DNA of 63,825 nucleotides. Origin: Myxococcota bacterium (GTDB lineage: Bacteria > Myxococcota_A > Polyangia > Polyangiales > Polyangiaceae). A program made the position numbers and the translations under genes. Location of the stretch: the NCBI GenBank assembly GCA_963169165.1, contig CAUJFL010000013.1:1-63825 (forward strand), in the 5' to 3' direction. This document shows, piece after piece, positions 38,018-48,172 of the stretch. The notes under the pieces were generated by a model. It had not been told where the DNA came from, made no database searches, and saw only the letters and a list, made by a program, of their open reading frames with translations. Every line of letters starts with the position of its first letter. Position 1 is the first letter of the stretch.

Positions 38018-39742
38018 ATGAAATCCGTCGCTTGGGTGTCGTGGTCGCTGCTGTTCTGCGCCGCGGCGTGCGCGGAGGGGATGGCTTCTCAGTCAGAGGA
38101 CGACGACGCGGCAAGCGCCGGCCGCGCCGGTGCGTCGGCGGGCAGCGCGGGCGAGCCTGGCGGGAGCGCCGGAGCGAGCAGCGGCGGCGCGGGCGCCAGC
38201 GGCGGCGGCACCCCCAGCACCGGCGGAACGAGCAACGGCGGCACCAGCAACGCCGGCGGCGCGGGAACCAGCAGCGGCGGAACGAGCAGCGGCGGGACGA
38301 GCAGCGCCGGGACGAGCAGCGCAGGAGCCAGCAGCGGCGGGACCAGCGGCGCCGGAGCAAGCGGCGGGACGAGCAGCGGCGGGGCGGGTTCGAGCGGCGC
38401 CGGCGGCGCGGTCGCGCCGTGCAACTGTGACTCACCGCCCTCGCCGGTCTGCCTGCCCGACGGCGTCACCCGCCGGGCCTTCACGAGCCCCGGCGCTTGC
38501 TCTGGCGGCTCGAGCTGCACCTACCCAAACATGGACACCACCTGTCCGTTCGGTTGCGCTGGCGGCGCGTGCACGGTCGATCCGTGCAACTCGGTGTCGT
38601 GCAGCGCGCCTCCCCCGTCGGTGTGCAACGGCGCCGCGGTGCGCACGTACAGCGGACCTGGCACGTGCGGAGGCTCGGGCGCGTGCACGTATCCGTTCAC
38701 CGACGGCGCGGCGTGCCCGTTTGGCTGCGAGGCGGGCGCGTGCAAGGCCGATCCCTGCGCCGGCGTCTCGTGCAACGCCCCGCCCCTGCCTGTGTGCAGC
38801 GGCGCCGCCGTGCGCACCTACACCGGACCTGGCACCTGCGCCGCGGGTGCTTGCACCTACCCGTCGAGCGACGGCGCCGCTTGCCCGTTCGGGTGCGAGG
38901 CGGGCGCGTGCAAGGCCGACCCCTGCGCCGGCGTCAGCTGCACGACCCCCCCGCCCCCCACCTGCTTCGACGCGAACACGCTCCGCACGCCGACCGGCGT
39001 GGGGACGTGCCAGCCGTCGACCGGCGCTTGTCAGTTCTCCACCACGGACCAGGGCTGCCCTGGCGGCTGCGCGGCGGGAGTTTGCAAGCAGTGCGCGACC
39101 GCCGCGCAGTGCATGAGCAACGAGTGGTGCAACGCCGGGACCTGCGCCTCGTGCGGCGCCGGGGCGTGCGGCAACGGCGCCTGCGACTGTGGCGAGACCG
39201 CCGCGACGTGCGCGGCCGACTGCAAGACCTGCCCGACGGCGCTCGTGATCGGCGACTGGGGCGCGGGCGACGACGGGTGGACCTACGACGGCCTGTGGAG
39301 GCGACAGGGCGCGATGCTCGCGGGGTCTACCAATAGCTATTGCAAGAGCTACACACAGAACCTCACCTCGGGCGCCAACCTCGATCTCTCGGGCTGTGGT
39401 TCGGCCACGCTGTCCTTCCAGGTCAAGCTCGACGACGATCAGAGCTGGACGCCGCGCGCTGACAAATCCGAGCGGCTCTACGTGCAGTGCTCCGGTGACG
39501 CAGGGGGCAACTGGACGAACCTGACGCCCGCGCCGTTCCCGCCCAACCAGAGCGAGTGCGGGGACAGCTACTGCAACAGCGGCACCGGCAAGGACCGGAG
39601 CTTCTCGCTGACCGCCCAGAGCATCGCGCTGCCGCCCGAGTGCCGAACCACGCAGGCGCGCTTCCGCTTCCAAGCGAAGGGCTCCTGCGCCTGGCGAATG
39701 AAGAACCCGGGCTGGACGGTCGACGGCGTGACGATCAACTGA
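38018..39742 (+). CDS. Lipoprotein with Ser/Gly linker and repeated Cys-rich modules
   Basis: MKSVAWVSWSLLFCAAACAEG; (SSGGTS)n linker; repeated GAACPFGCEAGACKADPCAGVSC. Confidence 0.8.
   Translation: MKSVAWVSWSLLFCAAACAEGMASQSEDDDAASAGRAGASAGSAGEPGGSAGASSGGAGASGGGTPSTGGTSNGGTSNAGGAGTSSGGTSSGGTSSAGTSSAGASSGGTSGAGASGGTSSGGAGSSGAGGAVAPCNCDSPPSPVCLPDGVTRRAFTSPGACSGGSSCTYPNMDTTCPFGCAGGACTVDPCNSVSCSAPPPSVCNGAAVRTYSGPGTCGGSGACTYPFTDGAACPFGCEAGACKADPCAGVSCNAPPLPVCSGAAVRTYTGPGTCAAGACTYPSSDGAACPFGCEAGACKADPCAGVSCTTPPPPTCFDANTLRTPTGVGTCQPSTGACQFSTTDQGCPGGCAAGVCKQCATAAQCMSNEWCNAGTCASCGAGACGNGACDCGETAATCAADCKTCPTALVIGDWGAGDDGWTYDGLWRRQGAMLAGSTNSYCKSYTQNLTSGANLDLSGCGSATLSFQVKLDDDQSWTPRADKSERLYVQCSGDAGGNWTNLTPAPFPPNQSECGDSYCNSGTGKDRSFSLTAQSIALPPECRTTQARFRFQAKGSCAWRMKNPGWTVDGVTIN
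38702..38940. repeat. Duplicated Cys-rich module encoding DGAACPFGCEAGACKADPCAGVSC
   Basis: Near-identical segments starting at about 38702 and 38871. Confidence 0.8.
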
Positions 39743-46377: not shown

Positions 46378-46538
46378 AGACCGCGGGCGGCTTGCTGGTT
46401 GCTTCTGCCGGGGAGGGTACGCCGCTTCTTCAGCTCGGGCCGATCCACAACTTCTGGTCACGTATCGCGCGACGTTAGGTTTGACGAGGTCAGAAATCAG
46501 TTGGTAGGCTGCGGTTCCCAAGCCAGAGGAGGACCAGG

Positions 46539-48172
46539 ATGCGCTCACCGCTCACTGCTCACCGCTCACCGCTCACCGCTCACCGCTCACCGCTCACTGC
46601 TCGTCGTGCTGTCGCTTTTCGCGGCGTCCCAGGTCGGGGCAGACGGGTGTAGCTGCAACCCGCTCCCGCCTGGCGCCGACGCCGAGATCCGCTACTACGA
46701 GGGAGGCACGGGGGAGCCGGTGAACCTCATGAGCATCCCCGCGGGAGAGGTGGCCACGCAGGAGGTGCAGACACCACATGGTGTTCGACGAAGGCGGCCA
46801 CCTCGCAGCGAGGCGAGACCGGGGACGGATGGAGATTCAGGCGATGTCGCAGGTCGGCGGGGTCCCCTACGGGGCGTCCAAGCCGTGGCAGGCCACGAAC
46901 TACCTGTCGTACTTCCTGGAGGGCACCGAGCTCGACGAAGTGCAGATGGCGGCGCTGGTGCAGGGGGTTCAAGGCGCCAAGGCTTCGCACAGCGGCTTCA
47001 TGTCGTACTCGTATCTGCTCGGGGCGCTCGACTATCACTTCCCCCAGCGCGACGTCGGCTACCCGGTCGAGGCCGTGAGGACGCAGCTGCGAGGGCGTTG
47101 CTCCAGCTTCCAGCCATGGGCATCGACGTTCCAGAGCTTGATGGACGAGCTCTCCGCGGGGTTCGGGTGCGGCGTGGCGACCTCGGAGTTCGAGCTCTGG
47201 GGCGTCACGCTCGAGCCGGGGTTCGGCGGCTGGAGGCACCAGATGGGTTTCTTCCCTCACCTGACCGGCCCGACCGAGCCAGGCCGCCACGTCGCCGGCG
47301 GAGGGTTCACGATGTTCGGCAACCTCGAGGCCGACCTGACCGACTACGTCCAGAACGCGGACGGTTTCTTCAACGTCGCGTACGAGTTTCAGGTCGAGAA
47401 CCACCGCCCCCGCCTGGTGGTGGCGCACGGGAAGGTTCGCGCGACCGGCAGCTACGCCAACGAGAACATCCAGGAGAGCCTGAGTGAGGCGATTGGGACG
47501 AAGCTCCCGGCCGCCTTCACCGCGACGATGCAGAGTCGGCTCTCGCAGCTCTTGCCCGGCAAGATCGTCTTCCCGTCGAAGGCTGTTTGCCCGGCCGCCT
47601 GCTCGCTCGGCGCGCCCGACCTCGAGGACTGCAGGACGCGGACGACAGACACGCTGAAGACGATCCTGATCACGCACTTGACGAAGCAGGGTCTCTCCGA
47701 CACCGAAGCGAAGACGCGAGCAGCCCGGATGGTGGAAGACTTCAAGCCGTCGGACTTCAGCTGCGAGAGCGCCTTCGAGAAGACGGGCGGCGGCGTCACG
47801 CCCGACGAGGCCGAGGAGTACAACTTCCAGATGTGCAGCCAGGCGCCGTGCGCGGGCGGCAGCGCGTGCGGGGTCTGCACGTTCCACGTCCCCGTCCAGG
47901 CGGTCAACGTGTACAATGACGGCTTCGAGCTGGTGATGCGGGAGGCGGAGAACGACACGCTGGCGGCGCTGCAGAGGGCGCTCCTGGAGTCGAACGACGC
48001 CGCCTCGGCCGCCGCCCGCGCCGAGCTCGACGCGCTCTGCAACCCCAGCGACGGCGAACGCGACGCGTTCACGCGGGACTATACTTTCACTCACGTACAC
48101 GACCACGCCTGCTTCGACCACTGCCCTGGCCCGGGCGCGCCCCCTCCCCCCGCGCTCTTCTGCAAGCCATGA
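46539..48172 (+). CDS. Secreted protein of unknown function, with frame discontinuities near its 5' end (phase-variable or pseudogenised)
   Basis: ATG at 46539 preceded by aggagg; signal-like LLVVLSLFAASQVGADGCSC in frame +1; main body MVFDEGGHLAARRDRGRMEIQAMSQ... open from 46778 to 48172. Confidence 0.6.
46543..46598. repeat. Heptamer tandem repeat (GCTCAC[C/T]) x8
   Basis: 8 consecutive 7-bp units (units 2 and 8 end in T), followed by gctcgtc. Confidence 0.95.

Follow-up and report, generated by a model that had tools for sequence, protein, structure and literature searches.

A heptamer tandem repeat located between the start codon and the signal-peptide code of a secreted-protein gene in a Myxococcota bacterium is probably a translational contingency (phase-variation) switch, one of a genus-wide set on secreted-protein and lipoprotein genes. 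We put the probability of this reading at about 0.78. It is based on the anatomy of the tract, the repertoire of comparable tracts in the genus, their frame states, the differing tracts of paralogs, and purifying selection on the gene bodies of the window family. The window is the whole stretch of DNA that was analyzed, 63,825 nucleotides of contig CAUJFL010000013.1; its own genome is a 5.8-Mb draft (G000), and the sole congener genome compared is designated G001. The features of the gene and its surroundings are as follows.

46481-46510, + strand: promoter-like elements TTGACG (46481-46486) and TAGGCT (46505-46510) with an 18-nt spacer, recognized by eye and weak
46525-46532, + strand: ribosome-binding site AGAGGAGG, kept in the G001 copies C55 and C133
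46539-46652, + strand: present frame of the ATG, a 37-codon dead-end peptide with its stop at 46650-46652
46543-46598, + strand: heptamer tract of 8 x GCTCAC(C/T), the proposed slippage switch, ON if the unit number is 3k+1 (sequence, TRF)
46597-46650, + strand: signal-peptide core LLVVLSLFAASQVGADGC, in the +1 frame (sequence, comparison with G001)
46771-46775, + strand: one extra base relative to the relatives, putting signal peptide and body into different frames (alignment with G001 C55, G001 C133, and G000 C31)
46778-48172, + strand: putative secreted-protein body of 464 codons, without a Pfam match, 77% identical to the intact G001 C55
48169-49071, + strand: Cys-rich lipoprotein gene, its start overlapping the upstream stop as ATGA (sequence overlap; homologs beside window-family copies)

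Re-reading of the sequence bears out the initial annotation, which described eight GCTCAC(C/T) units beginning 1 bp after the ATG at 46539 with a ribosome-binding site upstream. The ATG occupies 46539-46541, a single C stands at 46542, and the tract follows; its second and eighth units are GCTCACT, the other six are GCTCACC, and a degenerate GCTCGTC comes next. TRF assigns the tract a period of 7, 8.7 copies, and a score of 108; under a first-order Markov model, the 56-mer would be expected about 1e-26 times in the window. As expected of a contingency locus, the gene thus carries a non-triplet tandem tract (8 x 7 bp) inside its 5' coding region. The frame opened by the ATG does end at 46650-46652, as had been described, and the hydrophobic signal does lie in the +1 frame relative to this ATG. 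Both G001 copies of the gene retain TTGAC and a TAG.CT-like hexamer in the promoter-like region, and a strict consensus promoter scan gave no match. The window has two other tandem repeats, at 1216-1438 (24 bp, 9.3 copies) and 38546-38935 (171 bp, 2.3 copies); in each case the unit length is divisible by 3.

In the proposed mechanism, slipped-strand mispairing during replication would add or remove 7-bp units between the start codon and the signal peptide. A unit number of the form 3k+1 would place ATG 46539 in the signal-peptide frame (ON), and any other number, the present eight included, would yield the short dead-end peptide (OFF). The overlapping Cys-rich lipoprotein gene, homologs of which adjoin the window-family copies C55, C133, C31, C261, and C219, is a probable operon or co-expressed partner and would probably be expressed less in OFF cells too. 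The genus-wide set would employ several unit types, the window family being accompanied by this lipoprotein gene. Slippage presumably occurs in living cells, where it would change the amount of protein made and may serve as bet-hedging of surface or secreted proteins.

The further proposal that loss of one unit would join the ATG to the signal-peptide frame holds for the signal peptide, but the gene body would stay in the third frame, a point that the initial annotation had missed. The body lies in that frame because of one extra base near 46772, within approximately 46771-46775, where the codon-position GC pattern changes as well; losing one repeat would therefore restore the signal peptide and not the full protein. 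Both sides of the extra base resemble selected coding sequence, as judged from the codon-position pattern and from a dN/dS of 0.41 between the window body and the intact G001 copy (0.33-0.41 for the window family overall), and so the damage is either recent or an assembly error. The window copy is thus an OFF copy with a one-base body frameshift, either a recently damaged member of its family or the product of an assembly error. Selection has been kept in the window family despite the OFF state, as shown by its dN/dS, and OFF copies in the genus retain long open frames, as expected of contingency loci. A Pfam search with the protein family of the window gene matched no family. For the window body taken by itself, structure prediction gave a mean pLDDT of 42 and was left unused.

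This frameshift, on top of an out-of-frame tract, would also fit a window copy that is a decaying pseudogene, its tract a passenger without switching and the real switches located elsewhere in the genus. Turnover in the family is real: G001 holds a broken copy (C133, L017) and, at G001:C5 (L019), a 3' remnant. Decay sits poorly, however, with 464 open body codons of strong codon-position bias under the constraint given above, and with a nearly perfect heptamer; the single disabling change seen could itself be an assembly error. We consider such decay unlikely, but by no means negligible.

With regard to the switch reading, the relatives of the gene allow unit numbers to be compared. In G001, both the intact copy C55 and the broken C133 keep the ribosome-binding site and the ATG; two GCTCACC units and a GCTCTCT come next, or about three units against eight in the window. 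The unit number therefore varies between species and among related copies, as it does at contingency loci, and the DNA after the tract is 92-94% identical between the window and the G001 copies. In neither G001 copy does the ATG share a frame with the signal peptide, and no ON copy was seen among the three copies of the heptamer gene compared (window, C55, and C133). A paralog in the window's own genome (G000:C31, 64% identical to G001 C55) is without the heptamer and has (AAGC)4 directly after the ATG instead; this ATG does not lie in the frame of the signal peptide that follows it, a mismatch that 5 or 2 AAGC units would correct. A different repeat at the same place is hard to account for unless a tract is useful there.

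The out-of-frame ATG in 3/3 heptamer copies would also be expected if the protein started downstream, at GTG 46606 or ATG 46778, with the repeat affecting only the leader or its spacing, and an AGGAGG does lie 12 nt before ATG 46778. However, GTG 46606 yields MLSLFAASQ, without a charged N-terminus, ATG 46778 is without any signal, and in-frame tracts elsewhere in the genus (C79, C193, and C299) join the ATG to complete signal peptides. A downstream start is thus improbable.

Evidence for a genus-wide set of switches comes from searches run on the two genomes with every repeat unit that was encountered. Together, G000 and G001 contain 27 genes with a slippage-prone tract (unit of 1, 2, 4, 5, or 7 bp) at the gene start, and a secretion signal follows the tract wherever the gene is readable. 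For every unit type, start-anchoring was what brought the initial locus to notice, and only later loci are therefore independent; all of these are anchored too. The units include GCTCACC, AAGC, ACGAG, CTCGT, GGCTC, CCGT, poly-C, and poly-G. AAGC in four or more copies occurs at four loci, in each of which it immediately follows a sense-strand ATG, and ACGAG/CTCGT (coding strand) in four or more copies at 13 loci, 13/13 of them within 18 nt after such an ATG; wherever no contig end interrupts the locus, the tract runs into a lipobox or Sec signal. Paralogs of the pentamer-tract proteins carry at the same place GGCTC x18 (in frame, 804 codons), CTCGG x5, poly-C of 14, poly-G of 8, or an AG tract. 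Pfam matches among the tract proteins of the genus include a lipoprotein with an endonuclease/exonuclease/phosphatase domain, a reprolysin-like metalloprotease that also has FG-GAP repeats, and proteins bearing thrombospondin type 3 and kelch-like repeats. Two loci, L126 (G001:C113) and L131 (G001:C226), share an identical 6-unit CTCGT tract and signal-peptide code and diverge about 70 nt past the tract, a pattern reminiscent of the copying of a 5' cassette onto other DNA.

In a 1.33-Mb sample, chosen by contig number and independent of repeat content, just two tracts combined a unit of at least 4 bp with at least four copies, namely that of the window and a (CCGT)8 that has an ATG upstream and a signal peptide with an 812-codon frame downstream. 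A blind search for CCGT returned one more locus, with an ATG 20 nt upstream, before a secreted trypsin-like protease (TAAHC motif). A GTGC tract after an ATG in G000:C3 has 3.5 copies and was too short to count.

Neutral repeat growth or an assembly artefact, without any switching role, would be in keeping with draft, fragmented genomes in which several tracts lie at contig ends, and with the intergenic arrays of identical units found within the family. Other genera were also compared. The ACGAG repeat is present in seven other genomes of the family, but only 2/13 of the loci read in other genera have an ATG within 20 nt and 1/13 precedes a secretion-type ORF (13/13 in the genus against 1/13 elsewhere, Fisher p = 3e-6); at random positions in G000 and G001, an ATG occurs within 20 nt upstream in 10% of cases per strand. 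The exception is L228 (G076:C132, 2516-2555), in which eight ACGAG units lie directly upstream of a prepilin-like ORF of another genus. In G090 and G089, ACGAG arrays (L223-L226 and L230) stand beside GGGCAC hexamer arrays, in several apparently intergenic places. GCTCACC arrays in other genera are likewise mostly intergenic. The window tract was considered as one of many such arrays, which occur in G026 and G117, and this was rejected, as three consecutive GCTCACY units are found at only one place in the 5.8-Mb draft, the window tract itself. The single AAGC tract found in another genus (G021) lies outside any comparable gene. Because the loci of other genera are not so placed, start-anchored placement is a property of the genus and not of the repeat itself. 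Neutral growth or artefact is made quite improbable by the position after the start and before the signal, which both genomes share although the unit types differ, and by the near absence of other non-triplet tracts in the 1.33 Mb.

The frame could be read at 24 of the 27 loci, 4 being in frame (C79, C193, C299, and the CTCGT locus of G000:C83, the gene of which has an early stop further downstream) and 20 out of frame. About 8 would be in frame by chance, and the deficit, computed for 4/23, is not significant (p 0.08); 4 ON loci of 24 are compatible with chance and also with selection against expression. Several OFF genes have long open frames of 492, 527, 915, 935, 1388, and 1389 codons, and at other loci of the genus a change in unit number would restore the whole gene. 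Pentamer paralogs that are 93-98% identical past the tract have 5, 8, and 13 units, and a further one has 8 followed by an interrupted remainder; across the pentamer paralogs in general, numbers of 5, 8, 10, and 13 occur. The C95/C76 pair has a dN/dS of 0.75, which indicates constraint only weakly. Long open frames at mostly out-of-frame loci might suggest programmed ribosomal frameshifting in the repeat, linking each ATG to its signal frame so that the out-of-frame genes are all expressed, but this is very improbable given that the unit sequences are unrelated, the required shift varies by locus, and in-frame copies exist. Phase variation, as first proposed for the window gene, is supported by its contingency-locus anatomy, by the different non-triplet repeats that occupy the equivalent position in a paralog and in numerous other secreted-protein genes, and by the presence of both in-frame and out-of-frame copies among the loci of the genus.

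Comparable switches have been described elsewhere. In Neisseria meningitidis, autB (and autA) carries AAGC repeats directly after the start codon, in the signal-sequence code, and autB is OFF in most strains with the gene otherwise intact, some copies being further disrupted (PMC5118866). The genus studied here shares the translational on/off arrangement with the repeat directly after the start, and the AAGC unit itself occurs in four of its other genes. Unlike autB, which encodes an autotransporter of host-adapted bacteria, the window gene has a heptamer and belongs to an unclassified family of a probably free-living bacterium; the autB/autA beta-barrel autotransporter family does not include it, the window family having no Pfam match and other tract proteins being of protease, nuclease, or TSP3 type. 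In E. coli K1, neuO of the CUS-3 prophage has an AAGACTC heptamer in its 5' coding region (PMC13001214). Both genes have a 5' heptanucleotide repeat, which in neuO, and by proposal here, allows the full product only at one unit-number class modulo 3, whereas neuO is a phage-borne capsule O-acetyltransferase with its repeat translated into the enzyme and the window repeat precedes a signal peptide; with its GCTCACC unit and no Pfam match, the window gene falls outside the sialic acid O-acetyltransferases with AAGACTC. Gonococcal pilC, as cited in PMC13190605, has poly-G in the signal-peptide code. Slippage at that position, as described there, resembles the poly-G locus G000:C397 and the poly-C locus G001:C215; unlike the window tract, pilC has a homopolymer and encodes a pilus protein, with no sequence relation as far as tested. 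The mechanism is therefore already known from Neisseria autB and E. coli neuO, and the genes described here lie outside those protein families.

To our knowledge, phase variation in Myxococcus xanthus has not been traced to repeat slippage in structural genes. Phase variation is named for this species by Furusawa et al. 2011, as cited in PMC8538405. Haemophilus, Neisseria, Campylobacter, and Helicobacter have many independent repeat switches per genome in surface-related genes; these are repertoires of host-associated bacteria, whereas the present genus is probably free-living, and the 2025 phase-variation review that covers them does not mention myxobacteria (PMC11868660). A literature search on myxobacteria, Myxococcota, Sorangium, and Deltaproteobacteria found no such repeat repertoire, which is weak evidence of novelty as few subscription papers were covered.

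Repeat-slippage switches in large numbers are known chiefly from bacteria adapted to a host, in which they are explained by immune evasion. On balance, the present data favor a repertoire of about 20 slippage switches in each genome of this large-genome genus, with many types of repeat unit, 1 to 7 bp long, on secreted-protein and lipoprotein genes, which would vary the surface or secretome combinatorially. The switch-bearing genes would, with similar plausibility, encode proteases that are secreted, proteins with thrombospondin repeats, and lipoproteins, one of them nuclease-like. If a lineage that is GC-rich and probably free-living has a comparable set, this would point to other drivers, such as phages, prey, or kin recognition. 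Unrelated units occupying one position, immediately behind the start codon of secretion signals, would make the genus a good comparative system for the origins of such switches. If the reading is true, an environmental, probably myxobacterial bacterium randomly varies the proteins that it displays or secretes, a strategy known mainly from host-adapted bacteria.
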